DNA from: an uncultured Deferribacteres bacterium
Lineage (GTDB): Bacteria > Zhuqueibacterota > JdFR-76 > DREG01
DNA length: 42,946 nt
NCBI GenBank assembly: GCA_913009825.1
Contig: CAJVYQ010000041.1
Location: 1-42,946, forward strand
Direction of reading: 5' to 3'
The notes beneath the pieces were generated by a model that ran no database searches, was not told the DNA's origin, and saw nothing but the letters and a program-made list of their open reading frames with translations. Positions 3,057 through 18,315 of the stretch are shown here, one piece after another (position 1 is the first letter of the stretch; each line of letters opens with the position of its first letter). The position numbers and the translations under genes were made by a program.

Positions 3057-4358
3057 TCAGGGCAATTGATCATCAAAAGGCACGTCTTCTTCTAAAAAAT
3101 GCAGCGCCGCTTCCAGATCATGTGTGAACAAGTTTAAGTTTACATTGGCAAGCAACTCCAACCTTTCCAGATAATTCTGTAATTTTTTCTGTTTCCTTTC
3201 AGCCTTAAAAAGATCAGTATACGGCATAAAGATTAACAATGATCCCGGCGGTTGAACAAAAATAATATCTTCGACACCAAATACTTTATCGACTACAAGC
3301 AGAACATGCTTGCTGTTCCCGATTTGTACTGCCGATTCTGTATCCGCCGACGCCCCGGTCAACTGCAGGCGCAGAAAAGCGAACGGTTTTTGAGTAGCCT
3401 CGTGCTGTCTCTTTTCGATGGTGAATAGCGGTTCGAACAGGGAAACCGGAAGTACTTGCAGGCCCTGTTCCACTGCTAATTTTTCCAACCACGATTTACG
3501 GGGCTGCCGTGCTGCCGTGTTGAGATGATAGGAATAAATTACTTTTTTTGCAGAAGCGCCTAACTCAAACTCTTTGCCGCAGGATAAACAGAGTGCTTTG
3601 GTTAGCCGGGTGGAAATAGTTGCATTGCAGACATGACACCGGTTCGTCTGCTTCTCAAAACTGTTTGTTTCTCCGGTGAGAATCGGAGCGCCGCACTTGG
3701 GACAGAACATTCTGACGTTCAGTTGAGAAGCGTTGCAATAGGGACACAAATTCACCCTGTCGTAAATTTTTTTTGTCAACGGGCCGTTTTTTACTCCGTC
3801 TTCCAGCAAAGTAAGAAAATCCTCACGGGATAACCCTGTTTCCAAACCGCAACGGTTCATTTCATAAGAAAATCCAAAAGGCGCCTGCGCATCCGGTACG
3901 GGAACCACATCCTCAATATTTTGCCGCTGTAACATTGCAAGCAACGCATCTGTTTTATGGGAAACGGGGACATGATTTTCTTTTCCATGGCGGTGGGAAA
4001 TAAATGATAAAACAGCATTTATTTTTGCCAGGAGAAATTTTCTATCGAACGGTTTGGATAAATAATCTAACGCTCCGCTTTGCAATGCCTGCAAACGTAC
4101 GGCGGAATCATGCAAGTTAGCCAGAAAAATGACCGGCAGATCAGGTGATTTTCGGCGGACATTGCGACACAATTCGACGCCGTTGCTGTCCGGCAGTTCC
4201 CATTCGGAAAGGATGATATCCATCGAATCGGATGGTAATTTGCGAAAAAAATCGGCAGCATTTATGAAAATCCGGCACTGAAACCGGTTTTCTGTGAGAA
4301 GCTTTTGCATCACACGAAGAACGGTGATATCCGGATCGATTACTCCAATTACTGCCAT
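3057..4358 (-). CDS. Pseudo-receiver / TackOD1-like zinc ribbon / degenerate GGDEF protein
   Basis: 433 residues in three parts. Residues 1-120 fold like a response-regulator receiver, but the phosphorylated Asp is Glu52 (IILSEWELP) and the acidic pair is D8-P9-D10. Lys102 is kept (YLSKPF), so it may be locked in an active-like state. Residues about 180-285 hold four CxxC pairs (C205/208, C219/222, C241/244, C257/260). The spacing and the DRVNLCPYCNASQLNVR-type sequence recall the TackOD1 output domain. Residues about 320-425 resemble a GGDEF domain (FAFLRLQL; DIIFVQPPGSLLIFMP), but the GGDEF loop is P370-P-G-S-L, so no cyclase activity is expected. It is the last gene of the long operon, 12 bp after the upstream histidine kinase, and probably acts as a non-catalytic adaptor or nucleotide sensor. 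Confidence 0.75.
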   Translation of the reverse strand: MAVIGVIDPDITVLRVMQKLLTENRFQCRIFINAADFFRKLPSDSMDIILSEWELPDSNGVELCRNVRRKSPDLPVIFLANLHDSAVRLQALQSGALDYLSKPFDRKFLLAKINAVLSFISHRHGKENHVPVSHKTDALLAMLQRQNIEDVVPVPDAQAPFGFSYEMNRCGLETGLSREDFLTLLEDGVKNGPLTKKIYDRVNLCPYCNASQLNVRMFCPKCGAPILTGETNSFEKQTNRCHVCNATISTRLTKALCLSCGKEFELGASAKKVIYSYHLNTAARQPRKSWLEKLAVEQGLQVLPVSLFEPLFTIEKRQHEATQKPFAFLRLQLTGASADTESAVQIGNSKHVLLVVDKVFGVEDIIFVQPPGSLLIFMPYTDLFKAERKQKKLQNYLERLELLANVNLNLFTHDLEAALHFLEEDVPFDDQLP

Positions 4359-4370
4359 AGCAACAATGTT

Positions 4371-5459
4371 TTATTCGTTCATGTTCAAAACGGGCAGGGT
4401 GAAATTGACACGAAACCATTTGCCAACTTCTGATTCCGCCCAAATTTCACCGCCATGTTTTTTTACAATATATTTTGCATTATACAGCCCAAGCCCGGAA
4501 CTTTTACCGGCATGGGTAATTGTATCTTCAACCTGGGAAAATTTCTGAAATATTTTTTTAATGTCTTGTTTTTTCAGGCCGTCACCTGTATTGGTTACCG
4601 AAACTTTAAGGGGATCATTTTCGGTAACAAAATGAACCAGGATTTCCCCTCCTTCATCGCCGTATTTTACGGCATTCGCCAGCAAGTTGTTAAGTACAAC
4701 ACGGATCAAACGAGGATCACAAAATACGGAACTCAGCATTTTGTCACTCTCCACAAAAACGCTGATTTCATTTTTTTCAAACAGCTCGGACATCTCTTCC
4801 AAAATCGGAAGCAGGACATCGTGGAACAGATCGACCGGCTTTTTCTCCAACATCATCTCTCCCTGCTCGATTTTGGCCAGTTCCAGATAATTCTGAATCA
4901 TTTCAATGAGCGAGTTGGAGGAACGAATGATCACATTGGTTGCTTTTTTTTGTTCGGCATTCAGAGTCCCGATCACTTCTTCGGATAACAGTTCGGCAAA
5001 CCCCAGAACAGAGATCAACGGACTCCGCAATTCATGAGAGACGAACCCCAGCATATTAAGATACTGTTTGTTGATCTCCACTAATTTTTTGTTCTTTTGA
5101 TTTAGTTTTTGGGTCGCCTCATTCAATTGTCGATTCGAAATTTCCAACCTGCGGAACATTTCCGATTTTTCCTTTAAAAGCGCAGCTTGTGTGGCAAACC
5201 GGATCAAAGAACGTAATTTTTCTTTCACAGGCCAACCCTCTTCCAGATCTTCAAAGTCTACAAAATCAACTCCAGGCAATTCATTAAAACGATCGATATA
5301 CTCTTTCAAAATCATATCCAACAATTCATCCTGGTTGTTGGTTTGTCTGATCAATTCCGTGCTGATATTGTAATTACGAAACAGCTCATTAATCTGCATT
5401 TCATAATCATCATTTTTGTCCTGCCAGGGATCCTTTTTTAGTAGAAGCGAACTTTTCAT
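4371..5459 (-). CDS. Soluble sensor histidine kinase (HisKA-HATPase)
   Basis: Predicted to autophosphorylate and pass phosphate to a receiver. The N-terminal 100 residues are unassigned and predicted helical, followed by a coiled coil (about 95-135). The HisKA domain has H142 in FVSHELRSPL, and the ATPase domain has the N box (VLNNLLANAVKYG), G1 (VTNTGDGL; the usual D is T-N, slightly unusual) and G2 (SSGLGLYNAKYIV). No membrane segment or periplasmic loop is visible, so the signal is internal. The start at 5459 has a good site (AAGGTGACAAG). It lies 24 bp after a single-domain receiver (5484-5936), its likely phosphorylation partner, and 12 bp before the pseudo-receiver protein, which could be its non-phosphorylated partner. 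Confidence 0.88.
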   Translation of the reverse strand: MKSSLLLKKDPWQDKNDDYEMQINELFRNYNISTELIRQTNNQDELLDMILKEYIDRFNELPGVDFVDFEDLEEGWPVKEKLRSLIRFATQAALLKEKSEMFRRLEISNRQLNEATQKLNQKNKKLVEINKQYLNMLGFVSHELRSPLISVLGFAELLSEEVIGTLNAEQKKATNVIIRSSNSLIEMIQNYLELAKIEQGEMMLEKKPVDLFHDVLLPILEEMSELFEKNEISVFVESDKMLSSVFCDPRLIRVVLNNLLANAVKYGDEGGEILVHFVTENDPLKVSVTNTGDGLKKQDIKKIFQKFSQVEDTITHAGKSSGLGLYNAKYIVKKHGGEIWAESEVGKWFRVNFTLPVLNMNE

Positions 5460-5483
5460 CTTGTCACCTTCACATGTTTTGCG

Positions 5484-5936
5484 TTAATGAACTTCGGGTT
5501 CCTCAGATTTATCAAGCACTTCATATATTTTATCCACCAACTGAATGGGGCTGAACGGTTTATAAAAATAATTACGGTCATCTATTTTGATATCCGGTTT
5601 TTCCTCTTTGGCTACCGCCGTCAAAAATACTACCGGTGTTTTCTCCGTGCTTTTATCGGCTTTCATCTTTTTGTAAACATCAAAACCGTTCCACTTGCCG
5701 GGAAGAATCACATCTAATAGTACAAGATCAGGATTCTGTTGCCGCACTAAATTCCAGGCATACTCTCCTGTTTCCGCCTCTAACACCGTAAAATTATCCA
5801 CTTTCAACGTCTCTTTAATTACATCACGAATGTCTTTTTCATCATCGACAATCAAAATCTTTTTACCAAAGTGGCTTTCCCCCCGGCGTTTTGTACCGGA
5901 ACGATCATTTTCTATATTTATCATTCTCTCTATCAT
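5484..5936 (-). CDS. Single-domain response regulator (CheY-like)
   Basis: 150 residues: a short basic N-terminal extension (about 24 residues), then one receiver domain and no output domain. All key residues are present: acidic pair D31/D32 (ILIVDDEKD), phospho-acceptor D75 (LVLLDVILP), the Thr in VVFLTAVA and the Lys in YKPFSP. It must act by protein contact, for example on the downstream kinase pair or the pilus platform upstream. ATG 5936 and ATG 5924 are both possible; neither has a strong ribosome binding site. It sits 10 bp after the PAS pseudo-kinase gene and 24 bp before the histidine kinase gene, inside the long operon. Confidence 0.88.
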   Translation of the reverse strand: MIERMINIENDRSGTKRRGESHFGKKILIVDDEKDIRDVIKETLKVDNFTVLEAETGEYAWNLVRQQNPDLVLLDVILPGKWNGFDVYKKMKADKSTEKTPVVFLTAVAKEEKPDIKIDDRNYFYKPFSPIQLVDKIYEVLDKSEEPEVH

Positions 5937-5946
5937 AAAATAAGTT

Positions 5947-7116
5947 TTATGCGGAAATCCTTAAACTTTCACTCCAGGATGGAAACGCAAGCTCGATAAC
6001 CAACTCTTTTTCTGTCTCAATTTTGAATTTTCCCCCGTTCCATTCAATAATCTCTTTCGCCAATGCCAAACCGATACCGAAATCCTCCATTCTTTCTCTG
6101 AGACTGAACTGGGAATTCACCATTTTTTGCAATTCTTTACGATCGTTTGGAACAATATCAGGACAGGTAAATCGAAGATACAATCCCTTACCTGATTGAA
6201 ACATCTCGATAGTAATCGTGCCGTCAACCAAAGTGTAAGTACTTAGAATTTTTTGCATATTAAACAGTGCCCTGCCTAATAGATCCTGGTCAATAAATAT
6301 GGAGCCGCTATCCTGCACCTCAAACTGAATTTGAATTTCCTGATTGTGTATTTCATCTTCTAATTTACGAAGGACATCCACCATGAGGTTGTCTAATTTA
6401 ACCAAAGTTTTGTTCAATTTTTCTCCGCTATGCAATGGTGAGATTTGGATCATATCTTCAATCAAGCTCTGTAAAGATCGACCGGATTTTTTCAGAAAAT
6501 TGAAATAGGAGAGTTCCTCTTTGGACAATTTTGTCCGAACATTTTCATAGAATTGTTCCGTCAGGCCAAGTAATCCGTTAAGCGGAACACAAATTTCCTG
6601 CGAGGCGAATTTAATAAACTGGCTTTTTAATCGTTCAAATCCCTTTGAATCGGTCACATCCCGGAACAGAAAGACAAAACCACCTTCGATTGTATCGGTG
6701 GCGGAAAGATCGGAAACGAAAACCCAATACACGGTCTCCTTTTTGTCAACCGGCGAAAATTCGAAATCCATTGAGGGGTGCTGTATCTGATTTTTCAACA
6801 TTAAATATCGTGTCAATTTTTCGGCAGGTACAAACTGCCGTAGAGAAGTCCCCAAACATTCTTGCTGCCTGGTTTTAAACATGTTCACGAAAGAAGAATT
6901 CACTTCCTGAATGATCATGTTTTTGTCTGTTGCAACCATTCCTTCGGACATACTGTTAACCACCGCTAATAATTTTTGATGCATCTCCTCTGCGTGAGCG
7001 CGTTGTTCCTTTTCCTTACGGTAAATCCTAGCAAAATCCCGGCTGTACACTAAAATTTGCTCTTGGGTCCTGGTTAACCGATTCTGAATTTTTTCGAAAG
7101 ACAAATCCTGATCCAT
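5947..7116 (-). CDS. PAS-domain pseudo-histidine kinase
   Basis: 389 residues from ATG 7116, chosen over the longer frame because AGAAGGA lies just upstream and the longer version would overlap the preceding gene. An N-terminal coiled coil (about 5-50) leads to a PAS domain (about 50-157), a HisKA-like helical hairpin (about 160-230) and an ATPase-like domain (about 240-380). The catalytic features are lost. The H-box reads FASQEICVPL, so the phospho-His is Q173. The N box ALFNMQKILSTYT keeps only N286. The G1 DxGxG is replaced by CPDIVPN. Only the G2 loop (FGIGLALAKEII, about 346-357) is well kept. No kinase activity is expected; a dimerising scaffold or sensor partner for the nearby kinases or pilus platform is likely. 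Located directly after the PilP-like gene. Confidence 0.82.
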   Translation of the reverse strand: MDQDLSFEKIQNRLTRTQEQILVYSRDFARIYRKEKEQRAHAEEMHQKLLAVVNSMSEGMVATDKNMIIQEVNSSFVNMFKTRQQECLGTSLRQFVPAEKLTRYLMLKNQIQHPSMDFEFSPVDKKETVYWVFVSDLSATDTIEGGFVFLFRDVTDSKGFERLKSQFIKFASQEICVPLNGLLGLTEQFYENVRTKLSKEELSYFNFLKKSGRSLQSLIEDMIQISPLHSGEKLNKTLVKLDNLMVDVLRKLEDEIHNQEIQIQFEVQDSGSIFIDQDLLGRALFNMQKILSTYTLVDGTITIEMFQSGKGLYLRFTCPDIVPNDRKELQKMVNSQFSLRERMEDFGIGLALAKEIIEWNGGKFKIETEKELVIELAFPSWSESLRISA

Positions 7117-7147
7117 TAATTTTCCTTCTTTTAGATCACCGGGACAT

Positions 7148-7642
7148 TTAAAACAGATAATAGATACGCAATTTGCTGTTGTTCCCCAGAACCACTTTAT
7201 TATCGCAAACATTGAGAACCATCATACTGTAAAACCTGCCTCCCACAGCAATATATTTTCCGGCCAGGATAGCATATGCTTTTTCTCCTCGAAGAACAAT
7301 CCCCTGCAGCGGATTTTTATACAGCGCACGGTTTTTCACTCCGGAATTAAATTTTGACGGTTTGAACGGGTCTTTAATCCGGTGCTGCTTAACACGGGCA
7401 ATCGTTGTGGTACGTTCTATTTTCTCCAAAGGATCAGTCTGTGCAGAAAATACCGGAAAAGCGCTAAACAGGCTTGCTTGCACCGGATCACCGCTGACAT
7501 ATTTTACTTCAAAATGATGCCTGCCGTACTGTTTGTCCGGTACGGAGAAGATAAGAATCAGAAAGGGTAAACTCCATTTCAGTGTAATTTTAAATTGAGA
7601 TCGCATATTCTTAACAAATTTATTATTACCACAGCCAACCAT
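7148..7642 (-). CDS. PilP/GspC-like pilus platform protein
   Basis: 164 residues. One hydrophobic segment near the N-terminus (LKWSLPFLILIFSV, about 22-36) is followed by a linker and a C-terminal beta-rich part. The conserved-looking pieces are KDPFKP (about 91-96), then NPLQGIVLRGEKAYAILAGK and VGGRFYSMMVLNVCDNKVVL. This matches the 'DPF.P ... L.GI ... A.I ... Y.VGG...G..V..I....V.L' pattern of the PilP/GspC homology region, which links the inner-membrane platform to the secretin. It is not lipidated, unlike many PilP proteins. The ATG at 7642 overlaps the PilO-like gene by 17 bp; ATG 7606 is an alternative. Assignment rests mainly on this pattern and on its place after PilMN and PilO. Confidence 0.65.
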   Translation of the reverse strand: MVGCGNNKFVKNMRSQFKITLKWSLPFLILIFSVPDKQYGRHHFEVKYVSGDPVQASLFSAFPVFSAQTDPLEKIERTTTIARVKQHRIKDPFKPSKFNSGVKNRALYKNPLQGIVLRGEKAYAILAGKYIAVGGRFYSMMVLNVCDNKVVLGNNSKLRIYYLF

Positions 7643-8198
7643 TCATTTTTAAACAGAGCAATCCTTTATATTTATTTTCGGCAGATTCCGGCCATATTTT
7701 CACATTTTTTATTTGAAAGCACGAAAAATTGTTTTCCAGATTTTCCCAATACGCTACTAAATCCATATAACGACCCACAATTTCAAAACCAAAATCAAAT
7801 CCGGCCAAATCCTTTTCCCTTTTTTTTATTGTCATTTTCTTAATGGTAACATGTAAATTCCCATTAATCAGAGCCAACCGTTGATAGGCCAATGTATCGG
7901 TGGGACATATATTTGCATACCGCAGATATTGCCGGGGTCGCCACTGGCGGGCGAAAGGGCCCTCTAATTTAATAGTACGCAGTCTGTCTTGTGCTTCCTG
8001 AATTGATTCTTCCTGCTGAACCAAAGACCGGGAAATTTCTATTTTTTCATGCCACAACGGCAACAATTGCCGGTAAAAAAAGATGCCGGTTGCAGTTAAT
8101 AAAAAAATACTGATCACCAAACTCCGGAACAGTGCCGCCACATTTCTAAACCGGTATGGATATTTGGAATAATATTTTATTTTTAATCTAAAGATCAT
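7626..8198 (-). CDS. PilO/GspM-like inner-membrane platform protein
   Basis: 190 residues from ATG 8198, which has AGAGAAGAAG upstream; a longer TTG start at 8222 is less likely. The architecture is that of PilO/GspM: a short basic cytoplasmic N-terminus, one membrane helix (SLVISIFLLTATGIFFY, about 25-42), a periplasmic coiled coil (EISRSLVQQEESIQEAQDRL) and a C-terminal ferredoxin-like alpha/beta part. Sequence similarity to known PilO proteins is weak, so the call depends on topology, size and position. It overlaps the fused PilM-PilN gene by 11 bp and the PilP-like gene by 17 bp, so tight translational coupling is expected. Partner of the PilN half in the trans-membrane ring below the pilus. 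Confidence 0.68.
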   Translation of the reverse strand: MIFRLKIKYYSKYPYRFRNVAALFRSLVISIFLLTATGIFFYRQLLPLWHEKIEISRSLVQQEESIQEAQDRLRTIKLEGPFARQWRPRQYLRYANICPTDTLAYQRLALINGNLHVTIKKMTIKKREKDLAGFDFGFEIVGRYMDLVAYWENLENNFSCFQIKNVKIWPESAENKYKGLLCLKMNGWLW

Positions 8199-9765
8199 GC
8201 TTCTTCTCTTTGATTTTTGCAAAAATCAGATACGGAATCGAATCGATATACTCATCCCGGACCTGGTTTCGTTTCACACCAACAAATTCAAAATAGCCGG
8301 TCTCGTTCAGTTTGTTGTAAAAATCAGTAATAAAATTAGGAGAGATCGCTTTTCCCTGAATTTCCAGTGCAAATCCGCCGGTTTTTTTTCTTTTCCTTTT
8401 TGAACTGAAATCTTTGTATTCTGCAGCGGGGATGATCTGCAACAAGGTGATCCAGGTGCCATTGGGAATCACCTCACCTACAGCTTTTAATATGGGGGAA
8501 TATCTGGAAAACCGTATCAGGTTATCCGGATTGGTTTTCTTTTCGGCCAACACATTTTCCAGAAATACCCGGTTTTTCAAACCCCGGGTTTGTTGTATCA
8601 GATCCTTGTGCTGAAAATCAAATTTAACATATTGTTGATATTTCCGATCCACCTGAAATGACAAAATCATGAAGAGAACAGAAGTGAACAGGGCAATAAG
8701 AGATGCAGCAATATGAAATTTGCTGTGATACTTGTTTTTATCTTTTATTAACCATTTCACTTTTTTACTTACATCCCTCTTTTGTTCGCTTTTTTTTTGC
8801 GCGCCCGACAAAGCCAGTGACATTGCCGGGGCAAACAGGGATTCGATCTCTTTCAGTTTTGCCGAATTAAAATCCGGGCCTATTCTTACCATGCGGGAAA
8901 AAGGCGTTACTTTTTCCACCGGCAAAAGCAGGTTGCGTGAAAGATAATTGTGGAACCATTGATAAATACCACCGGCGCCCACAATGCGCATTTTTGAGAC
9001 CGGCAGGGCGATATTTTCCGAGAAAGACTGGATAACCTTTTTCAACTGACCGGAAAAATCCTGCAGCCAGTTTTCAACGTGAAGAAATATATCCTGAATC
9101 TTCTCCATTGAATCATTGGTCTGCCAGATTAGTTTTTCATTCTTGAAATCTATGTTGGCAAATTTGAGCAGATTGAACAGCTTCTTTCGCTTGTCGGCAT
9201 CTTCCCGGTAAAATTCCGGAATGAGTTGATCTAATGAAAAATGAATGTGCTGATGTACCAGAACATTGCCATCCATTGTTAGGGTGATCCGGCTATCTAA
9301 ATACCCCACGTTCAGATAGAGAATTGCTTCTCCCCAGGAGATCGATTCTTCCAGTAGCGGCAGAGAAAAATCTTCAATTTCCAGCCTGGCCGGTCTGTCA
9401 ATCAGATTGAAGTGAGAACCCCACTGCAACCGGACGTTTTGTTCCGAAACGATTGCCTGAAGCTCCGGTTCATTTTTACCGAACAGGCTTTTAAAAATAT
9501 TGCGTCCTCGTTTTACCTGAAAATGAACATTCTCTCCCGGCACATTGATGGTTACAACACCATTATGAAAATCGATTTTGCTTAGCCGTTTTGAAATAAA
9601 TTGCGTAAGCTGATCCTGGCCGGCATGTTCCGGGAGATCAAGCAGCAGACAGTGAGTTAACTCAAACTCAGTTCCCAACATTCTTATTCCGACAACCTTA
9701 ACGGAATCATCCCCCCAATCTATGCCGAAACAGAGTTTTTTTTGTTTTCGTTTAAACATCTTCAC
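8188..9765 (-). CDS. Fused PilM-PilN (GspL-like) platform protein
   Basis: 525 residues. Residues 1-325 are an actin-like ATPase fold of the PilM type: phosphate-1 loop FGIDWGDDSVKVVG, and later RIVGAGGIYQWF, the adenosine-type motif. A basic linker, one membrane helix (HIAASLIALFTSVLFMILSF, about 351-370), a short coiled coil and a periplasmic PilN-like ferredoxin fold (LKAVGEVIPNGTWITLLQI onwards) follow. In type IV pili PilM and PilN are normally separate proteins; the fused order matches GspL of type II secretion. It should recruit the assembly ATPase, which is not encoded in this window. The GTG at 9765 and the ATG at 9759 are both possible starts. A 97-bp gap with a hairpin separates it from the pseudopilin gene. 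Confidence 0.8.
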   Translation of the reverse strand: MKMFKRKQKKLCFGIDWGDDSVKVVGIRMLGTEFELTHCLLLDLPEHAGQDQLTQFISKRLSKIDFHNGVVTINVPGENVHFQVKRGRNIFKSLFGKNEPELQAIVSEQNVRLQWGSHFNLIDRPARLEIEDFSLPLLEESISWGEAILYLNVGYLDSRITLTMDGNVLVHQHIHFSLDQLIPEFYREDADKRKKLFNLLKFANIDFKNEKLIWQTNDSMEKIQDIFLHVENWLQDFSGQLKKVIQSFSENIALPVSKMRIVGAGGIYQWFHNYLSRNLLLPVEKVTPFSRMVRIGPDFNSAKLKEIESLFAPAMSLALSGAQKKSEQKRDVSKKVKWLIKDKNKYHSKFHIAASLIALFTSVLFMILSFQVDRKYQQYVKFDFQHKDLIQQTRGLKNRVFLENVLAEKKTNPDNLIRFSRYSPILKAVGEVIPNGTWITLLQIIPAAEYKDFSSKRKRKKTGGFALEIQGKAISPNFITDFYNKLNETGYFEFVGVKRNQVRDEYIDSIPYLIFAKIKEKKHDL

Positions 9766-9788
9766 AATTCACACACTTCCCGCCAGAA

Positions 9789-9821
9789 AATCAATTTTGT
9801 TCCGGACAAATTAAATTGATT
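9789..9821. promoter_or_regulatory. Stem-loop between pseudopilin and PilMN genes
   Basis: AATCAATTT (9789-9797) and AAATTGATT (9813-9821) form a 9-bp perfect stem whose loop contains the palindrome TCCGGA. It lies in the only gap larger than 40 bp inside the operon. It could be an RNA-processing or attenuation element that sets different levels of pseudopilin and platform; there is no strong T-run, so a full terminator is unlikely. Confidence 0.4.
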
Positions 9822-9862
9822 GCACACACGTTGCAGCATCAACAAATCGCAAACGGTCCAAT

Positions 9863-10393
9863 TTAAAAATATGCATAATATTCTTTAAACCGGTTTTTGT
9901 TCAAATTGACAATAAAAAATCCATTTTCCGCCTGATAATACCAGCCGCCTGTCGCTGCAGGAGATTCCGAAATCATCTTTTTTAGTTGGTTCAAATCACC
10001 CACGCTAATTGTATCAATAACCACTGTTTCAAAACCGGTGACAGCTTCTTTGGGAAAAACGCTCAAATAAGGACCAAAGCGAAAATCACGGCTCCGGGTA
10101 GTAGACGGTTTTCCTTTTTTGTTTGTGTACCAGAGAAGCTGTTTTTTAAAAGTTTCCACGTTCCCGGCCCGGTTAAAATCCTCTCCGGAACAAGGAAATA
10201 AATCATGATCCAGAAAATAACCGTGAAGCGCTTTTCTTACATCCGTTAAATCCCGCTTCAATTGTTCCTCTTTTATTTGTTGCTGCCGGTTTTGCAGCGT
10301 TAAAACGGCCATGCTCAGCAAAATGCCGATAATACTAAAAATCAAGACGAATTCAACAAAAGAGAAACCTTCATTTTTTTGCAGATTCTGCAT
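9863..10393 (-). CDS. Type IV/type II pseudopilin
   Basis: 176 residues with a class III signal: a 9-residue leader ending in Lys-Asn-Glu-Gly, cut before F10 (GFSFVEFVLIFSIIGILL), with the conserved Glu at mature position 5 and a 20-residue hydrophobic helix. This is the N-terminal signature of pilins and pseudopilins processed by a prepilin peptidase. The globular part resembles GspG-type pseudopilins in length and in the alpha-helix spine plus YLSVFP-like beta region, but lacks their usual calcium-site sequence. It is the only pilin-like gene here; major pilin, peptidase, ATPase, PilC/GspF and secretin are absent. Its start overlaps the 3' end of the kinase gene by 23 bp, with GAGAGG upstream, which ties pseudopilin translation to kinase translation. 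Confidence 0.82.
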   Translation of the reverse strand: MQNLQKNEGFSFVEFVLIFSIIGILLSMAVLTLQNRQQQIKEEQLKRDLTDVRKALHGYFLDHDLFPCSGEDFNRAGNVETFKKQLLWYTNKKGKPSTTRSRDFRFGPYLSVFPKEAVTGFETVVIDTISVGDLNQLKKMISESPAATGGWYYQAENGFFIVNLNKNRFKEYYAYF

Positions 10394-12065
10394 TCTCTTG
10401 CCTCTCGATCCTTGCGTTCACTAACGGCAGCGTGAAGAAGAAAATACTTCCTTTGCTGATTTCACTTTCAACCCAAATATTGCCGCCCAATCTTTCGATA
10501 ATCCGCTTACAAATCGGCAGACCCAGGCCGCTGCCTTCCGGTTTCGTTGCTGCATCCGAGGAAACCTGTTTAAATTTTTCAAAGACCACCTTGAAATATT
10601 CTTTTGGAATGCCTTCGCCGCTATCTTCCACGGCAATTTGCAGAAAGTCACTTTTGTCAACCAAACGCTTCCCGGAAAACGGTTTGGACCAAACCTTAAT
10701 GACACTTTTCTCCGGACTGAATTTAATCCCATTCCCGATCAGATTGACAAACACCTGAATCAAACGATTGGTATCGCCCACAACCATCATATTAACCGGA
10801 TCAAAGTCCGTATCGATGATGATGTTTTTTTTCTCCGCCAATACCTTCACCGAATGGAACGCTTCCTGAAAAACATTTTCGATGATCACATTCTCTTTTT
10901 TAACGGAAAATTCGCTGTGACTCATTCTGCTCAAATCCAAAAGGTCATTCACTAAGTCGATCAACCGGTTTGTCTCTTTTTCGATGATAGACAAAAACTC
11001 TTTCTGGGTTTTTTTATCCGGTGTATCATATTCAAGTAAAATCTCGGTAAATGATTTGATGCTTGTCAGCGGCGTGCGCAATTCGTGGGAGATGGAAGAT
11101 ATAAATTCATCTTTCAACTGGTCCAATTTTCTCAGATGAAACAGTTCTTCCCGCTCGGTCAGATCCCGGCAAATACCAATAACGCCGATCCGTTCTTTCT
11201 CCGTATTTTTCAGGATGGAGAGATGAATTCCCAACGGGAAATTTTTCCCATCGATGGGATTGACATAATTAAATTGACCTTCAAAGTTGCCAATCATATA
11301 AGTTTTCTGCAAGGATTTGTCCAAAAATCTGACAAATTCAGGAGAAAAAATTTTATGGATTTCACTGCCGATGGCTTCCACAGAAGATATCCCGAAATAT
11401 TTTGAGGCAAAAGTATTGATCAGGGAAATTTTATTCTCCATATCCAGAGCGAAAAGACCATCTGCCATACTCTCAAGGGAATTCTCCAGGAAATTTTTCA
11501 TGTTGGCCATGGCTTGGTTTTTTAGAGCCATGTCCTTGTAGAGAAAGGCATTTTGCAGTGCGGAAGCCGCTTGTGTCCCCACCAAAAACAGTAAATCGGA
11601 TTTATGGGAAGTCAATTCATTGGTGCGGAGTTGCAGAAAGATAATCAGAACACCGATGATATTTTTCCCGGAAAGCAGCGGCACCAGCGCCATAGACTGA
11701 TCCTCTGTTTCCCCATCCTCATCCGGAATAATTACAACCCGTTCTTCTTTGCATGCCCACTTAATATAACCGGATTTTTCCAGCCAGCGTAAACGCGCGG
11801 AAGCGTTCCGGTCAATCTTATAATCATAATACAGATAATAATCATCGGAATATTTCTCTTTTAACAATAAACCCAAAGAGGAGAATTTAACAATCTCGCG
11901 CAGAAAAATGATGAGCTGCTGCAAAATTTCGGATACACTCTTCCCCTCGATGAGAAGTCGCGACCCATTGAAAGTGTTTTTGTACTCATTGTACGTCACT
12001 TTTACCGATTGATCCGAAATTTCAACTGGCCGGTTATCCCTTTTTAATTGTAATATTGAACCCAC
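10371..12065 (-). CDS. GAF-PAS sensor histidine kinase
   Basis: 564 residues from a GTG start with GGAG upstream. A GAF-like domain (about 35-180) is followed by a coiled coil, a PAS domain (about 190-305, ending in ICRDLTEREE), a HisKA domain with H327 (FISSISHELRTPLTSI) and an intact ATPase domain: N box VNLIGNGIKFSP, G1 AVEDSGEGIP, G2 EGSGLGLPICKRII. It has no membrane segment, so it senses a cytoplasmic signal. It is a canonical active kinase, in contrast with the pseudo-kinase at 5947-7116. It lies 25 bp after the HDOD gene and its 3' end contains the start of the pseudopilin gene, suggesting a role in regulating the pseudopilus. Confidence 0.9.
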   Translation of the reverse strand: MGSILQLKRDNRPVEISDQSVKVTYNEYKNTFNGSRLLIEGKSVSEILQQLIIFLREIVKFSSLGLLLKEKYSDDYYLYYDYKIDRNASARLRWLEKSGYIKWACKEERVVIIPDEDGETEDQSMALVPLLSGKNIIGVLIIFLQLRTNELTSHKSDLLFLVGTQAASALQNAFLYKDMALKNQAMANMKNFLENSLESMADGLFALDMENKISLINTFASKYFGISSVEAIGSEIHKIFSPEFVRFLDKSLQKTYMIGNFEGQFNYVNPIDGKNFPLGIHLSILKNTEKERIGVIGICRDLTEREELFHLRKLDQLKDEFISSISHELRTPLTSIKSFTEILLEYDTPDKKTQKEFLSIIEKETNRLIDLVNDLLDLSRMSHSEFSVKKENVIIENVFQEAFHSVKVLAEKKNIIIDTDFDPVNMMVVGDTNRLIQVFVNLIGNGIKFSPEKSVIKVWSKPFSGKRLVDKSDFLQIAVEDSGEGIPKEYFKVVFEKFKQVSSDAATKPEGSGLGLPICKRIIERLGGNIWVESEISKGSIFFFTLPLVNARIERQENAESAKK

Positions 12066-12090
12066 GTCAACTCCACACAGTTATTTAAAA

Positions 12091-12942
12091 TCAGTTTAAC
12101 ATTTCCAGGAACACAGATGATTTTTCATACTCTTCCTGAATTTCTACGATCAACTCACTCAATTCCTCTTCGGAAATACTGAGCATTTCCCAGCATTTTA
12201 CATCAATTTCCGCACCTTTTTTACCGCCGCCATCTCCCATCCCTTCCAGGCGCGAAATGGCATTTGCCAGATGGACAATGGCAACCATTTTCAGATTTTT
12301 TTCCGCCCGGCCCGGAGAATGGTGAAAGGCGACCGCCTCCTGAATCTGTTTCGGGAAATTCCACTTGTCACACAGCCATTCGCCGATGTGGCAATGGTTC
12401 AAACCTAAAACTTCATTCTCCGCTTCCCGGAAACTCACTTTTTTTTCATCGATCACATCCAATACCTGTTCAAACTTTGTATGGAGAAACTGGTCTAATA
12501 CAATTTTTCCAATGTCATGAACCAGGCCAGCCACAAATGCTTCTTCGGGGACTCCCAGCCGAATTCGCTTTGACAGCACCTTGCTTGCCACCGCACAGCC
12601 GATAGAATGCTCCCAAAGCTTTTTCCGGTCGAACCGTTCGTTTTTACCATTTTTGTTAAATGCGGAAAAAACGGAAGCGGTCATCACAATATTTTTAATT
12701 GAATTAAAACCGAGAATAACTGTGGCCTGGGTGAGCGTGGAAATTTTCCTCGGCAACCCGTAATAAGCAGAATTCACCACTTTCAGTATTTTACTGACGA
12801 GAGACACATCAATGCTGATTGTTTTGGCTAAATTTGACGAAGAAACTCCCGGATCTTCCACCATTGTGATCACTTGCTGCACTATCTGCGGTAAAGTAGG
12901 CAAACTCTGTATCTGGCTTACTAATTTGTGAAGATTAGCCAT
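12091..12942 (-). CDS. HDOD-domain signalling protein
   Basis: 283 residues, nearly all a single HDOD domain (about 5-210): LPTLPQIVQQVITMVEDP at the start, then LAKTISIDVSLVSKILKVVNSAYYGLP, the HD-like VHDIGKIVLDQ and VAFHHSPG. HDOD proteins are HD-related domains that usually lack phosphohydrolase activity and work as scaffolds in two-component and motility pathways. This one keeps the HD pair in VHDIGK and HH further on, so some metal binding cannot be ruled out. The ATG at 12942 overlaps the end of the upstream receiver gene by 8 bp, so the pair is co-translated and probably forms a receiver-HDOD complex. Confidence 0.9.
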   Translation of the reverse strand: MANLHKLVSQIQSLPTLPQIVQQVITMVEDPGVSSSNLAKTISIDVSLVSKILKVVNSAYYGLPRKISTLTQATVILGFNSIKNIVMTASVFSAFNKNGKNERFDRKKLWEHSIGCAVASKVLSKRIRLGVPEEAFVAGLVHDIGKIVLDQFLHTKFEQVLDVIDEKKVSFREAENEVLGLNHCHIGEWLCDKWNFPKQIQEAVAFHHSPGRAEKNLKMVAIVHLANAISRLEGMGDGGGKKGAEIDVKCWEMLSISEEELSELIVEIQEEYEKSSVFLEMLN

Positions 12943-13330
12943 TGAATAGCTCCTGTTTCTTTCCTAAAAGTTCCTGAACCCGGCGAATGATACGGGATGG
13001 ACTGAACGGTTTTGTAATATATTCATCGGCGCCGATCTCCGCCGCGTTTTTTCTGTCCGCTTCCTGCCAGCGAGCGGTAAGCATTATTACGTAAATATTT
13101 TTGAAACGATAGTCCGACTTAATCAACTTGCAGAGATCAAAACCGGACAGTCTTGGCATCATCACATCCAGAAAGATGATGTCCGGGATAAAACCACTGC
13201 ATAATTTTTCCCAGGCCAATTGTCCGTCCTCCAGGGTTATTACCGAATACTTTTCCTGCTTCAAAACAAAAGAGAGGGAGCGCCGGATATAGGGTTCATC
13301 GTCAACAACCATGATAGATGTTTTTTCCAT
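12935..13330 (-). CDS. Single-domain response regulator
   Basis: 131 residues forming one receiver domain: acidic pair D10/D11 (IMVVDDEPYI), phospho-acceptor D55 (IIFLDVMMP), Thr in VIMLTAR and Lys in YITKPFSP. It has no output domain. A good ribosome binding site (AAAGGTGAAAC) precedes ATG 13330. It lies 3 bp after the RsbU-like phosphatase gene and overlaps the HDOD gene. Likely carries phosphate from one of the operon kinases to the partner-switching or HDOD branch. Confidence 0.92.
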   Translation of the reverse strand: MEKTSIMVVDDEPYIRRSLSFVLKQEKYSVITLEDGQLAWEKLCSGFIPDIIFLDVMMPRLSGFDLCKLIKSDYRFKNIYVIMLTARWQEADRKNAAEIGADEYITKPFSPSRIIRRVQELLGKKQELFNG

Positions 13331-13333
13331 GTT

Positions 13334-14944
13334 TCACCTTTTCACTTTCATAATTTGCAGAGTAATATCATCTGCCTGATCAGTAGAATTTGAATAAAAC
13401 TTTACCTCCCGGAATATTTTATCCGCCAATTTCCGAACGGGCAGAGCAAAATTTGCGGCAATCAATTTTTCGATCCGGTTATAGCCAAACAGATTCCCTG
13501 ATGCATCACTGGCTTCAATAACTCCGTCCGTATACATAATCAGAAGGTCGCCGGGATGCAAAATAACCGTTTTTTCTTCAAAATCAACTTCGGGAAGAAC
13601 GCCCAACAGCAGTCCATCCGCATCCAACTTTACAAACCGGTTCTGCTTTGCCCGATACCAAATAACCGGATGATGACCGCCATTTGCAAAACTTAAACGG
13701 CGTTTTGAACGGTCGTAGCGCAGTAAAAAAACCGATATAAAAAGCCCGGAACGGTTCATATCATCGTAGAGCAATTTATTGGCGCGGTACAATATTTCAT
13801 TTACCGATGATGAGGCGTGAATCAAAGATTTCAGAACGCTGCGCGTGTTTGCCATCATCAAAGCGGCGCCGATATTATGCCCGGAAACATCCGCCATCAC
13901 CATTTCCAGACAACCATTATCATTGAGAAAAAAATCAAAATAATCGCCGCCAACATTTTTGGCCGGAATGCAGCGGCCAAAAATTTCCAACTCGGGCAGA
14001 TCGGGAAAACGGGTCGGCAACATCCCCGACTGTATCTGTTCCGCAATCTCCAAATCGCGTTTCAACCGCTCGGATTCCAACACTTTTTTCAACAGTTGAT
14101 TGTTGTAAATTGCGATGGCCGCCATGGAGGCGATGGAATTGAGCAGCTTTAAATCTCCCGATGAAAATGGCTCTCGGTTCCGTTTTTCCGTAACATTAAT
14201 GACCCCAATTTTATTGTTGTCAATTTTCATGGGAGAAACAATCATGGGGACCGAAATAAAAGACTGCGATTTGTAATCATCTCTTTTTTTTAATTCAATC
14301 TCCGGGGGAATATCCTGCAGTGTTTCCACCATTAACGCTTCCCCGTTTTGCAAAACATAACCACTGATACTCTTTTCGATGGAAACACGGGAATTTTCCA
14401 CTTTTTGTATATCAAATCCCAACGCCGCGGCAATGTCCAGCGTCTGGGATTTTTCGTTGAACAACATGATCGAGGACCGGTCGGCATTCAGCGATAATTC
14501 TATTTTTTCCAAAATAATATTGAAAATTTTTCCCGGTTTTAACAATGCGCCCAAAGATTGACTCAGATCGTACAGAAAATTCAATTCCTCATATTTATTG
14601 ACAATTTCGGCGGACATGTTATCCAGTTCATTTTCCAGTTGGATCCGTTCGGTCAAAATAGTCCGGACGAAAGTGCAAAAATGGTTCAAACCGGCAGCGT
14701 ACTCTGCTGCGGCTTCCCGCGTAGTTTCACAGGTTAGCGACAGATCGCCCCCCACAATCATCTTTTTCTCTATCGAACCGTTCAACGATCCGGCGGTAAA
14801 ACAAATCTGACTGTCACAAATAAGCCGGAACGGAAACGGAGTGATCTGTGCCAATTCCGCCATCGCGTTTTTAAACCACGGGGACTGAATCAATTCCCGG
14901 TAATCCACACTGTTTAATTCCTTTTTTCCGCCGATAAAAGTCAT
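13334..14944 (-). CDS. rsbU: GAF-PP2C (SpoIIE/RsbU-like) serine phosphatase
   Basis: 536 residues. The N-terminal 120 residues are unassigned. A coiled coil and a GAF domain (about 135-290) follow, then a PP2C-type SpoIIE phosphatase domain (about 305-535). Metal-binding motifs are visible: GGDYFDFF, VMADVSGHNIGAALMMA, LLIMYTDGVIEA and the final DQADDITL. Such proteins dephosphorylate the Ser of an STAS anti-anti-sigma protein. The STAS gene and its HATPase partner lie just upstream, and the start overlaps the latter by 4 bp, so the whole partner-switching module is encoded together. The gene symbol reflects the family, not proven orthology. The signal sensed by the GAF domain is unknown. Confidence 0.9.
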   Translation of the reverse strand: MTFIGGKKELNSVDYRELIQSPWFKNAMAELAQITPFPFRLICDSQICFTAGSLNGSIEKKMIVGGDLSLTCETTREAAAEYAAGLNHFCTFVRTILTERIQLENELDNMSAEIVNKYEELNFLYDLSQSLGALLKPGKIFNIILEKIELSLNADRSSIMLFNEKSQTLDIAAALGFDIQKVENSRVSIEKSISGYVLQNGEALMVETLQDIPPEIELKKRDDYKSQSFISVPMIVSPMKIDNNKIGVINVTEKRNREPFSSGDLKLLNSIASMAAIAIYNNQLLKKVLESERLKRDLEIAEQIQSGMLPTRFPDLPELEIFGRCIPAKNVGGDYFDFFLNDNGCLEMVMADVSGHNIGAALMMANTRSVLKSLIHASSSVNEILYRANKLLYDDMNRSGLFISVFLLRYDRSKRRLSFANGGHHPVIWYRAKQNRFVKLDADGLLLGVLPEVDFEEKTVILHPGDLLIMYTDGVIEASDASGNLFGYNRIEKLIAANFALPVRKLADKIFREVKFYSNSTDQADDITLQIMKVKR

Positions 14945-15387
14945 ACTGATTTGCTTCCCAAAATTAATTTCTCTATTAATAATTCATTCCGGTTTTTTCC
15001 TGTTGTATATTTTATTGAATCCATAAAACTGTCCATCAAAAACAATCCCCTGCCGCTGCTTTGGAAAACATCCGGTTTTTTTGCCAATTGTTCTGCCAAA
15101 ACGAACCCCCTGCCGTCATCGAAAACCCTGACGATGAGTTTGTTCAACTGTTTTTCCAACCGGAAAGAGATCTCCGAAACGGGTTTGTCATTTTGCGCAT
15201 GTAAAAACACATTGGTTAAAGCTTCCATGATACACACTTCCACTTCAAATCCCGCTTTTTCATTTTCCGGCCAGTACAATTCCACAATATTCCTGGCAAT
15301 TTTGGCAAATTTGCGAATATCAACCGGGGATGGATAGAATGAGAACTCAATTTCAAAGTCACCATCTTTTTCTTGACCGGACAACAT
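14941..15387 (-). CDS. rsbW: HATPase anti-sigma factor / serine kinase (RsbW-like)
   Basis: 148 residues from ATG 15387, which begins 1 bp after the stop of the STAS gene; a longer frame to 15444 would overlap that gene by 56 bp and is less likely. The protein is a GHKL-type ATPase domain: N box MEALTNVFLHAQ, G1 VFDDGRGF, G2 SSGRGLFLMDSFMD. RsbW-type proteins phosphorylate their STAS partner and hold a sigma factor or another target when the STAS protein is phosphorylated. No alternative sigma gene lies in the window, so the target is unknown and may not be a sigma factor at all. Confidence 0.88.
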   Translation of the reverse strand: MLSGQEKDGDFEIEFSFYPSPVDIRKFAKIARNIVELYWPENEKAGFEVEVCIMEALTNVFLHAQNDKPVSEISFRLEKQLNKLIVRVFDDGRGFVLAEQLAKKPDVFQSSGRGLFLMDSFMDSIKYTTGKNRNELLIEKLILGSKSV

Positions 15388-15388
15388 T

Positions 15389-15694
15389 TCAGATAATGTC
15401 AAATATTTTGTTGAGTCTGGTAATAGAAAACATGGATGCCACATGCTCCGTCAATCCGGATATTCGAATTGTTCCTTTTGCTCTGCGCGCTTCCCTCAAA
15501 CTGTAAACCAGCGCACCCAGACCGGAACTGTCGATGAAGCGCACTTTTTGCAGATCCAGGAGGATTTTATTCTGCCCGTCACGGATCAATTTCAGCAATT
15601 CTTCGCGCAATTCCACTGCATTCTGAATATCGATCCTTTTGTCTTTGATCAGCAAAACGGTGCCGCCATTTTTCCCTACTAATTGAATATTCAT
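15389..15694 (-). CDS. rsbV: STAS anti-anti-sigma factor (RsbV-like)
   Basis: 101 residues, a complete single STAS domain, with the phosphorylation site FIDSSGLGALV; Ser56 after Asp55 matches the Ser phosphorylated in SpoIIAA/RsbV. It is predicted to bind the HATPase protein encoded next (1 bp away) when unphosphorylated, and to be reset by the RsbU-like phosphatase. The ATG overlaps the preceding degenerate receiver gene by 4 bp. Confidence 0.92.
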   Translation of the reverse strand: MNIQLVGKNGGTVLLIKDKRIDIQNAVELREELLKLIRDGQNKILLDLQKVRFIDSSGLGALVYSLREARRAKGTIRISGLTEHVASMFSITRLNKIFDII

Positions 15695-16125
15695 GCGAAT
15701 ACCCTTTGATTAATTGGATAGAATAACGATCGACGATGGTTGTATCTTTCCCGGTAGCGACTCACCAGGGCGGCGTTTATCACTTCTTTCAGATAGTACC
15801 GGTCTTCCGGCCAGATGGCAAAATAGGCAATCCCCTGACTCCGTACCCGGCGCTCCAATTTTTGCGACGGTTGATTTGCGATAACGATAACACGAATATT
15901 TTCATCCGTCTTTCTGATCTGCCGGATCAATTGCAGCTCGGCAGTGGAATTGCTGTTTTGCAGCCCGGTCACCGCCACATCTAACCGGTACTTTTCGAAG
16001 ACCGATAAAAAGGAGCGGCTGTCCCTGAATATTTCCACATCAAACAATCTTGAATTGACCATTTCACGAATGGCACCGGCGATCTTTTCAGAATCCGAAA
16101 TTATTGCAACTGTCTGTCTCAGCAT
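15691..16125 (-). CDS. Degenerate receiver-like protein heading the operon
   Basis: 144 residues with the alternating beta-alpha pattern of a receiver (TVAIISDSEK, LDVAVTGLQNS, IRVIVIANQPS, GIAYFAIWPED). Of the phosphorylation residues only D11 is left: the acceptor Asp falls at G54, the Thr/Ser position is Ala, and the conserved Lys is Trp (FAIWPE). A basic C-terminal tail (about 120-144) has no recognisable domain. It is preceded by AGAAGGAAAT and is the first gene after the operon promoter; its stop overlaps the STAS gene by 4 bp. Probably a phosphorylation-independent partner of the STAS/HATPase pair. It could also be an unrelated Rossmann-like fold. Confidence 0.72.
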   Translation of the reverse strand: MLRQTVAIISDSEKIAGAIREMVNSRLFDVEIFRDSRSFLSVFEKYRLDVAVTGLQNSNSTAELQLIRQIRKTDENIRVIVIANQPSQKLERRVRSQGIAYFAIWPEDRYYLKEVINAALVSRYRERYNHRRSLFYPINQRVFA

Positions 16126-16182
16126 ATTTCCTTCTCTGATGAATCATAACAAATACCTCTTCATAATTAATTTTCGCCATAT

Positions 16183-16211
16183 TTTATAAAAATCTTGATT
16201 GATTTTAACAA
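16183..16211 (-). promoter_or_regulatory. Sigma70-type promoter of the signalling/pseudopilus operon
   Basis: On the minus strand, TTGTTA (16211-16206), a 17-bp spacer and TATAAA (16188-16183). The start would lie near 16176, leaving about 50 nt of leader before ATG 16125. No comparable promoter was seen inside the operon, consistent with one long transcript. Confidence 0.55.
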
Positions 16212-16673
16212 GCACCCTTTTCTTTTTGCTGAAGTTGAGGAAATCGTTTTGTTCCGCTTTCTTTCTGACCGCCAAATACATGACTCTGGTTTTGGATATC
16301 AAAATTACAGATTTTTATAGAAGGGGTGGAAGGAAAAAGGAAATTAGTTTGAGCCCTCCCTTTTTCGGTCAGGCACTAACTATGAAAAGGGAAATCATTA
16401 ATTTGGAGTTAGATTAGTGAGGAGTAACAGGAGGATCGAAGAAGAATAGTATGAAAAGTTTTGTTAAGCTTTAAGCCTGGATTATTCATGAATTTTGTTG
16501 TAATAAACCTTAACTTATTCGTATATAACAAGTTAAGCTGATGTTGATAAAAAAACAAATTTCTAAACGCAGAATTCGCAAATAACGCAGAGAATAGCGA
16601 TTTTCCTTTTCCGGTAATTTTCGGTTGACAGCTATTTCTGATTAGAAAAAATAGCTAAGATTTTCTCCATGTA

Positions 16674-16737
16674 TCTCTGCGGCCTCTGCGTTGATGAAAA
16701 GCCTCTTTTAACGTAGAGGCGCAAAGGACGCAGAGGA
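16674..16737. repeat. CGCAGAG-type palindromic repeat, copy 1
   Basis: TCTCTGCGGCCTCTGCGTT at 16674-16692 pairs imperfectly with an arm at 16710-16737 (aacgtagaggcgcaaaggac then gcagagga). The same hairpin recurs at 28747-28820 and 42840-42914, and half-copies lie at 16565-16592 and 16888-16909. Confidence 0.75.
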
Positions 16738-16980
16738 TCACAGAAAAACGGTTATAATCAAATTTATTTCACCCGCCCACAATTTCAGCCGTGGACTACA
16801 AAAAAGGAAGTACCCTTACCGCTCCAACGGTTCTAAAAAAAAACACCCGCTTGTCCGCAAAACATGCAACAAAAAACCTGCAAAAAACCTCTGCGAGTCT
16901 CTGCGTTAATTATTTTCGTGAATAATTCAGGTAACAAAAAAGGGGGTAAAATAAGAAGGGGTCCAGCGAACTTTTTGCTC

Positions 16981-18315
16981 TTAGCCCTGTGGTTCACAAC
17001 CGGATAATTTCTTTGCCGTTTCCCGATCAATTTGCAGGATTTTTGCCGCCAGCGTATAGTCTCCGTTGCAGACTGCGAGAGTATGCAAAACAGCTTCTTT
17101 TTCGATTTGATGAAGCGGCTTCAGGTTTTGATTCACCGATTTGGTCAGATAGCCGGGCAAATCTTTTACGCCTATTTTCCGGTTGCTCTGTATTGCCAGC
17201 GCGCTCTGAAGCACATTCTGCAGCTCCCACACATTTTCCGGCCAATGGTAGCGTTGTAAAATCTGCAGCGCATTTTCATCAACGGAGATATCGTCTGCCT
17301 CCTGCTGAAAAAAATGCCGGATTAATAACGGAATATCATCCTTGCGGTCTTTCAGGGACGGAAGATCAATTTTGTGCGCATTCAACAGATCAAATAATTT
17401 TATGTTAAATTGATTTTCATCGATCATTTCCTGCAAATCGATTTTGCCGGTAATAATGAAACGGACATCAACCGGTATCGCTTTTTCAGCCCGGATAGGA
17501 AAAATTTCCCCGGTGAGCAGTATTTGCAATAGTATTTTTTGCGCTTTTTTAGACAGCGCAAAAATTTCCTGTAAAAAAACCGTGCCTTTGTTAGCGGTTC
17601 GAAACACACCTAATTTACTGTACCCTTTGTCCGGTCCGGTTGATTCTTCCCGTCCCAGCCATTCATCCAACAGCCGCTGCTCTTTCAACACGCTGCAATC
17701 GGACGGGACAAATGATGCGGAAGCGCGGGCACTGTTAAAATGGATGGTTTTAGCGATCAATTCCTTGCCGGTACCGGTCTCGCCGCAAATCCAGACAACT
17801 TCCCGGTTTTGCGAAGCCGCTTCAATTTCCCGTTTTACCGTCATCATGGCCGGCGAATTACCGACAATATTTTCGAAATTGTACTTCTGGCGTAAAATAC
17901 GTTTCAATTGGCGGTTCTCCCGGCGCAACTTTTTGGTTTCGAACAGCCGTTTCAGTAAATTTTCCAATTCTTCGAATTGAATCGGCTTGGTGATATAATC
18001 GTAGGCGCCTTCTTTCATTGCATTCACTGCAGATTCAATACTGCCGTGACCGGTTATAAAAATCACGGCAATCTCCCGGTCGATCTTCTTCAACTGCCGC
18101 ATCAATTGTAAGCCGTCCAAATGCGGCATGATAAAATCGATCAGGGCGACGTCCACGTCCTGTTGCCGCACCAGTCCCAGAGCCTGCAAACCATCCGCTG
18201 CCGTAAAAGTACGGTATCCGGAGCCGGAAATAATTTCGGACAGAAGATCGCGGAAATCTTCCTCATCATCCACGATGAGAATACGTCCCGTTTCATCTGG
18301 TTCTTTAATTTTCAT
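16981..18315 (-). CDS. Degenerate NtrC-family (sigma54 activator-like) response regulator
   Basis: 444 residues: receiver, AAA+ domain, Fis-type helix-turn-helix. The receiver is intact (D16/D17, phospho-acceptor D60 in ALIDFIMP, Lys110). The AAA+ domain keeps Walker A (GETGTGKE, 178-185) but has lost what is needed to remodel sigma54 polymerase. GAFTGA is replaced by STGPDK (225-230), Walker B GTLFLDEI by GTVFLQEI (Asp to Gln249), and the arginine-finger segment FRxDLxYRLN by FNIKLFDLLN (303-312). The sensor-II GNVREL reads ENVWEL. The C-terminal helix-turn-helix (EKEAVLHTLAVCNGDYTLAA, about 405-440) is shortened. It probably binds DNA or partners in a phosphorylation-dependent way without activating sigma54. 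It stands alone, separated by repeat-rich gaps on both sides. Confidence 0.85.
   Translation of the reverse strand: MKIKEPDETGRILIVDDEEDFRDLLSEIISGSGYRTFTAADGLQALGLVRQQDVDVALIDFIMPHLDGLQLMRQLKKIDREIAVIFITGHGSIESAVNAMKEGAYDYITKPIQFEELENLLKRLFETKKLRRENRQLKRILRQKYNFENIVGNSPAMMTVKREIEAASQNREVVWICGETGTGKELIAKTIHFNSARASASFVPSDCSVLKEQRLLDEWLGREESTGPDKGYSKLGVFRTANKGTVFLQEIFALSKKAQKILLQILLTGEIFPIRAEKAIPVDVRFIITGKIDLQEMIDENQFNIKLFDLLNAHKIDLPSLKDRKDDIPLLIRHFFQQEADDISVDENALQILQRYHWPENVWELQNVLQSALAIQSNRKIGVKDLPGYLTKSVNQNLKPLHQIEKEAVLHTLAVCNGDYTLAAKILQIDRETAKKLSGCEPQG

Follow-up and report, generated by a model that had tools for sequence, protein, structure and literature searches.

We suggest that a fifteen-gene signalling operon of an uncultured bacterium carries, in its middle, what is left of a secretion or pilus machine. 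The stretch of DNA analysed (the window) is the whole of a 42,946-nucleotide contig, C41, of a draft genome, G000 (5.1 Mb, 96% complete), whose relatives are KSB1 bacteria, a little-studied bacterial phylum; genomes are labelled G0xx and families fN below. Among partner-switching proteins, receivers and histidine kinases, the operon encodes a pilin, a fused PilM-PilN (PilMN), PilO and PilP. Comparison of gene content and order indicates that this module goes back to a complete type II secretion-like machine, parts of which were lost in the window lineage, and our tentative reading is that the retained proteins form a membrane sensor scaffold for the cytoplasmic signalling proteins of the operon. 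The features are listed in gene order, with the basis of each assignment in brackets; the last one lies outside the run.

15691..16125, minus strand: g16, pseudo-receiver, a receiver-like protein with the phosphoacceptor Asp lost (Response_reg E 9e-7, alignment, synteny)
15389..15694, minus strand: g15, STAS protein of anti-anti-sigma type, DSSG Ser motif conserved (Pfam, alignment; 68% to G002)
14941..15444, minus strand: g14, RsbW-type HATPase with N, G1 and G2 boxes intact (Pfam, alignment)
13334..14944, minus strand: g13, GAF-SpoIIE/PP2C phosphatase (SpoIIE E 4e-50)
12935..13330, minus strand: g12, single-domain receiver (Pfam)
12091..12942, minus strand: g11, HDOD protein (Pfam E 9e-66, tree)
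10371..12065, minus strand: g10, histidine kinase HK2, GAF-PAS-HisKA-HATPase with SHELRTPL (sequence, Pfam, hydropathy)
9863..10393, minus strand: g09, GspG-like pilin with intact EG^FSFVE cleavage site (sequence and alignment)
8188..9765, minus strand: g08, fused PilM-PilN, GspL-like (profile search, fold, alignments)
7626..8222, minus strand: g07, PilO, GspM-like, with one transmembrane helix (hhalign, hydropathy, synteny)
7148..7642, minus strand: g06, PilP with GspC-like homology-region domain (hhalign, synteny)
5947..7212, minus strand: g05, PAS pseudokinase, Gln replacing His and ATP-binding motifs missing (Pfam, alignment)
5484..5936, minus strand: g04, single-domain receiver (Pfam, alignment)
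4371..5459, minus strand: g03, HK1, an active-looking soluble histidine kinase (Pfam, alignment, synteny; 55% to the f4 orthologue)
3057..4358, minus strand: g02, receiver-TackOD1-zinc ribbon protein, its degenerate GGDEF-like end predicted from relatives (Pfam, alignment)
16981..18315, minus strand: g17, NtrC-type activator, a syntenic neighbour in f4, separated from the run by an 855-nt gap (Pfam, synteny)

All 15 minus-strand open reading frames (ORFs), from window position 16125 to 3057, are present, and neighbouring genes are either separated by gaps of 3, 10, 12, 24, 25 and 97 nt or overlap by 4, 4, 8, 17, 23, 35, 56 and 65 nt. An earlier note, made from the sequence alone, had described such a run of genes with overlaps or short gaps, joining a partner switch, receivers, HDOD and kinases to pilus-type genes. 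Measurement of the ORFs and junctions, homology to the complete machine of relatives and Pfam matches (STAS, HATPase_c_2, SpoIIE/PP2C with GAF, receivers, HDOD, two kinases with HisKA and HATPase, receiver-TackOD1) bear out both layout and contents. The same note had placed the pilin start within a kinase gene, where we also find it (the ATG is 23 nt inside the HK2 gene), and its two pseudo-signal proteins are confirmed in g05 and g16.

Pfam recognised the PilN part of g08 weakly (E 0.002) and gave no match for PilM, PilO or PilP of the operon. A profile of ten relatives matched PilMN to a PilM of known structure (PDB 3jc8, E 5e-41), and hhalign gave 91% for PilO and 98% for PilP against their complete-machine homologues; a single-sequence search of genome contigs with PilMN returned no match. 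The identity of PilMN, PilO and PilP rests on homology to the complete machine, on fold (for PilMN) and on identical gene order. Genes of the PilMNOP/GspLMC assembly sub-complex are present, with the PilM region reduced. The prepilin cleavage site of the window pilin is intact (G-1, E+5), as are those of the G002 and G004 pilins.

The arrangement recurs among relatives. G002, which belongs to the same family as the window genome, has 14 of the 15 genes in the same order, with a different receiver in the 15th position, upstream of STAS, and G004 (family f3) has the same core split over two contigs. In family f4 (G005, which is BMS3Bbin03, and G006), the corresponding superoperon contains a complete type II secretion-like machine. 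Its first half comprises the neighbours of g18-g20, NtrC, pseudo-receiver, STAS, HATPase, PP2C, CheW, methyl-accepting chemotaxis proteins (MCPs), CheA, CheB and CheR, and its second half continues with receiver, HDOD, HK2, GspE, GspF, pilin, minor pilins, PilMN, PilO, PilP, secretin, PAS kinase-like protein, receiver, HK1 and TackOD1. HK2 was not found in G005; the sister genome G006 has it. Judged by gene order, the window form corresponds to the f4 superoperon without its Che set and without GspE, GspF, minor pilins and secretin. Pilus and signalling genes occur together in f1, f3 and f4, and partly so in f9, f12 and f20, so the co-occurrence in related genomes that the earlier note had proposed as a check is found, and synteny upholds its view of the two gene sets as one conserved unit. 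Because complete machines also occur without the signalling genes (in G067, G069 and more distant records), the type II secretion-like machine is probably older than its signalling association. Two side observations concern these loci: a 167-amino-acid unknown ORF sits between HDOD and GspE in G005 (L019 6364-8530), and just upstream of the G002 operon (L017 14869-16782) lies the gene of an M6-type peptidase that bears a type IX secretion tail.

The extension ATPase, GspF platform, minor pilins and secretin are absent from the window operon. Elsewhere, the G000 genome encodes two long PilB-type ATPases and one PilC-type platform (contig C11) and one secretin with PilT (contig C55), the latter contig holding a complete type IV pilus set of PilMN-PilO-PilP-PilQ-PilT. 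In the members of the order examined, two loci matching C11 and C55 encode a canonical type IV pilus, complete with PilMN, PilO, PilP and PilQ of its own. Phylogenetic trees place both ATPases and the platform of C11, and the secretin of C55, among the type IV pilus genes of the relatives and separate them from the operon-type genes (support for the split is 100/99 for ATPases and 100/100 for secretins). Since every other motor, platform or secretin gene of the genome is orthologous to a gene of the type IV pilus that the relatives encode separately, the missing parts are truly lost, not moved; the trees, together with the conserved type IV pilus synteny, rule out that GspE, GspF and secretin were relocated. 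The earlier note was right that ATPase, PilC/GspF and secretin are missing. Its suggestion that the operon adapts a machine encoded elsewhere fails as an account of origin, as the module derives from a complete machine whose ATPase, GspF and secretin were encoded within the operon itself, and is left as a reading of present function, weighed below. A real absence of PilC in G002 was ruled out as well: its type IV pilus contig C68 ends at 24273, inside the second PilB gene. The C11 type IV pilus locus (L100 12577-18778) also contains histidine kinase, receiver and HDOD genes, and has two tandem PilB-type ATPases with a receiver between them; both features are conserved across the order.

The reduction extends into PilM itself. 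The region assigned by position to subdomain 1C measures 72-82 amino acids in 3/3 reduced forms (72 in the window) as against 103-109 in 12/12 other PilMs, taken from complete machines or type IV pili. The loss amounts to 25-35 residues, and the LPxM...A..E segment seen in most full-length PilMs is gone from the reduced forms. AlphaFold2, run on the same ten alignment rows, gave this region a predicted local distance difference test score (pLDDT) of about 30 in the window, where it is modelled as unfolded, versus 77-91 in G005, where it is folded, and the models matched solved PilM structures at about 1e-11 (window) and about 1e-25 (G005). PilM contacts the extension ATPase according to a study of Thermus PilF (PMC6325625), and the title of a cited paper refers to a PilB-PilM contact in Myxococcus. 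We infer that the lost PilM region may be the one that serves the ATPase contact.

Other fragments of the system are found in more distant relatives. Two genomes of family f9 that are 99-100% complete (G011 and G023) have PP2C-receiver-HDOD-HK2-pilin, with HK1-TackOD1 elsewhere, and their other ATPase, platform, PilMN and secretin genes are those of the type IV pilus only, except for Tad-like genes in G023. Their pilins have lost the cleavage Gly and are apparently uncleavable, and retain the conserved globular segment YR.DHGFYPC...FRRQLTWYTD. A third f9 genome, G050, has PilP-secretin-HK1-TackOD1; G067 has receiver-PilN-PilO-PilP-HK1-TackOD1 apart from its complete machine; and in f12 GspE stands between HK2-receiver and HK1-TackOD1. 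As distant relatives retain such varied fragments beside the same kinases, the kinase-machine link predates the window's family, different fragments having been kept in different lineages. In G070, an orphan pilin without the cleavage Gly and Glu lies beside a prepilin peptidase gene (L151 5121-6507), and a TackOD1 gene is interrupted by an in-frame TGA (L179 5938-7398); the two together could represent a late decay stage of the system.

The motifs of the partner switch and of two kinases are intact. The g15 STAS Ser site, the g14 HATPase boxes and the g13 PP2C are all as expected of an RsbVWU-type switch (Pfam, alignment), and no sigma factor gene was seen in the window beside this set. HK1 (by alignment) and HK2 (by sequence and Pfam) have the phosphoacceptor His and ATP boxes; in g05, alignment shows SQE in place of SHE and a degenerate ATPase domain. 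The receiver Asp of g16 is lost in the window and an Asp-like residue is retained in f4 (alignment). The HDOD protein g11 falls in a clade separate from the HDOD of the type IV pilus locus, and the receiver-TackOD1 proteins of relatives carry an added GGDEF-like domain, degenerate in the window. By hydropathy, credible membrane helices occur in the pilin, PilMN and PilO, are weak or probable in PilP, and occur in none of the signalling proteins; HK2 is cytoplasmic, its sole hydrophobic stretch falling within the GAF domain.

Because no operon protein other than the machine parts is clearly a membrane protein, we read these parts as its sensor scaffold. It may be that the pilin, PilO and PilP sense in the periplasm and that the PilN membrane helix carries the change to the cytoplasmic, actin-like PilM, which would alter HK2 and HK1, the g05 pseudokinase serving as adaptor. 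Output would then pass through the receivers, HDOD and the receiver-TackOD1 protein, with the STAS/HATPase/PP2C partner switch as gate; signal direction, physical contacts and final output are all conjectural in this scheme. Synteny, genomic losses, the PilM change, the further reductions, hydropathy, the codon pattern described below and precedents support the sensor reading. In a stricter form, possible rather than probable, the scaffold is permanently without motor, platform and secretin and is kept as the transmembrane sensor of a multi-kinase pathway, with parallel reductions in other KSB1 lineages that leave, at the extreme, a lone uncleaved pilin next to a kinase. Several points weigh against a sensor scaffold. 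The intact cleavage site of the window pilin and the one genomic prepilin peptidase mean that processing and assembly could still take place, PilP retains its homology-region domain, whose known partner is the secretin, and the divergence of PilO (21-27% identity) may be compatible with relaxed constraint. The PilM result depends on a small number of highly divergent sequences, and a shallow alignment can also produce low pLDDT.

The main rival, in our view less likely, is a borrowed motor, whereby the reduced module would serve the housekeeping type IV pilus as an alternative base: PilD would cleave the pilin, PilB and PilC of C11 would polymerise it, PilQ of C55 would provide the exit and the operon would decide the timing. 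The intact pilin cleavage sites of the window, G002 and G004 and the homology-region domain of PilP fit this scheme, as does the complete type IV pilus encoded elsewhere with one PilD; the only prepilin peptidase gene of G000 is in the type IV pilus locus, and the enzyme could be shared. However, that pilus already has its own complete PilMN-PilO-PilP-PilQ, the PilM region that is of constant length in motor-bearing systems is shortened here, and the fragments of f9 and G067 persist where assembly by any motor is unlikely. A module that plugs into the type IV pilus machine and one that works without a motor would both fit the sequence, and we prefer the motor-less form.

It is improbable that the pilus genes are decaying leftovers kept by gene overlap, the signalling genes now controlling something unrelated. 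Identity within one family is very low (21% for PilO, 30% for PilMN, versus 42% for type IV pilus paralogues between the same genomes); because the reduced copies diverge faster than those paralogues, an argument from rate based on PilMN identity counts as weak evidence. The codon-position pattern of PilO between the window and G002 is nearly flat (61, 49, 59%). On the other hand, none of the four retained ORFs is broken in any of three genera from two families (with G004 PilMN read from two contig ends), and the pilins are 42-53% identical and share 29 invariant residues across seven sequences. Codon positions 1 and 2 diverge less than position 3, most clearly in the pilin and PilMN, which argues against decay. 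We give little credit to mere adjacency, in which co-transcription of signalling and pilus genes would be a historical accident: complete machines do lack these signalling genes in f20 (as they do, on the downstream side, in f2), but the association spans six families in varied arrangements (GspE-HK1-TackOD1, secretin-HK1-TackOD1, HK2-pilin). Least credible of all is an assembly artefact that leaves GspE, GspF and secretin in unassembled gaps. The genomes compared are in draft form (123 and about 210 contigs), and in G002 a contig end has indeed cost the type IV pilus its PilC gene; yet the same parts are missing in G000, G002 (98% complete), G004, G011 and G023, and the operon genes leave no room for them, with HK2 and pilin overlapping by 23 nt, PilP and g05 by 65 nt, and only 97 nt between pilin and PilMN.

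Promoter and terminator scans gave no excess over shuffles. The single good promoter claimed by the earlier note (16208-16181) scores 9/12, and with 43 such sites in the region against 38.9 ± 7.2 in shuffles, the claim is not borne out. Rfam and tRNA scans gave no match within the window. A mobile or viral origin of the operon was rejected, with no plasmid match and only weak N-terminal pilin matches in viral contigs. The upstream gap (16126-16980) contains several CTCTGCG/CGCAGAG-type repeats in both orientations, resembling a dispersed palindromic element. Beyond it, window 16981-25673 encodes the NtrC-type activator, a giant PD40-TPR-CHAT-like protein, a small lipoprotein-like protein and a mannosyl-3-phosphoglycerate phosphatase-like protein, in the same order beside the operon in f4, where an aminotransferase is inserted. 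A convergent GAF-GGDEF diguanylate cyclase gene (1980-3053) adjoins the operon end; no match to it was found at that place in G002.

If the sensor reading is true, a secretion/pilus machine has been dismantled stepwise within one phylum, leaving a regulatory shell and a few membrane parts, and a motor machine has been converted into a signalling device. TackOD1, known from archaeal pilus loci as an output domain whose function is obscure, would be tied to bacterial type IV filament machinery, and the reduced forms are natural deletions that can be used to ask which PilM region serves the motor.

A search of open-licence papers found no description of pilin with histidine kinase and HDOD, nor of HDOD with type IV pili, in such an arrangement. 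The operon shares with type II secretion and type IVa pilus systems a GspG-like cleavable pilin, a GspL-like PilM-PilN fusion, PilO/GspM and PilP/GspC, and in relatives the same operon holds the whole homologous machine, GspE, GspF and secretin included; it differs in having no extension ATPase, platform or secretin and a PilM without the conserved region. Four proteins, extension ATPase and platform among them, occur in every type IV filament system (PMC10191384), and by that criterion the reduced module alone is not a type IV filament machine. Its STAS, HATPase and PP2C proteins, with key motifs intact, resemble RsbV/RsbW/RsbU, but no sigma factor gene is seen nearby and the set is embedded in a pilus operon. 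PilS-PilA is a case of two-component control by pilin in which PilS is a membrane protein. Here, too, a pilin is paired with a histidine kinase, and the genes of the two overlap, but HK2 is devoid of a credible membrane helix. A receiver and TackOD1 beside pilus genes recall the TackOD1 proteins described from type IV pilus loci of thaumarchaea (PMC5847659), a parallel that speaks for a common role linked to filaments, although the present system is bacterial and relatives add the GGDEF-like domain. In Myxococcus xanthus, the state of the type IV pilus is relayed to the Dif system through PilB (PMC5544727). There, as proposed here, pilus machinery stands upstream of signalling, and the f4 operon has CheW, MCPs, CheA, CheB and CheR, whereas the window lacks Che genes and has two kinases, HDOD and a partner switch, and the signal carrier PilB is absent from the operon. 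By analogy, it is pilus-to-signalling relays such as the Myxococcus type IV pilus-Dif pathway that the reduced module would most resemble.

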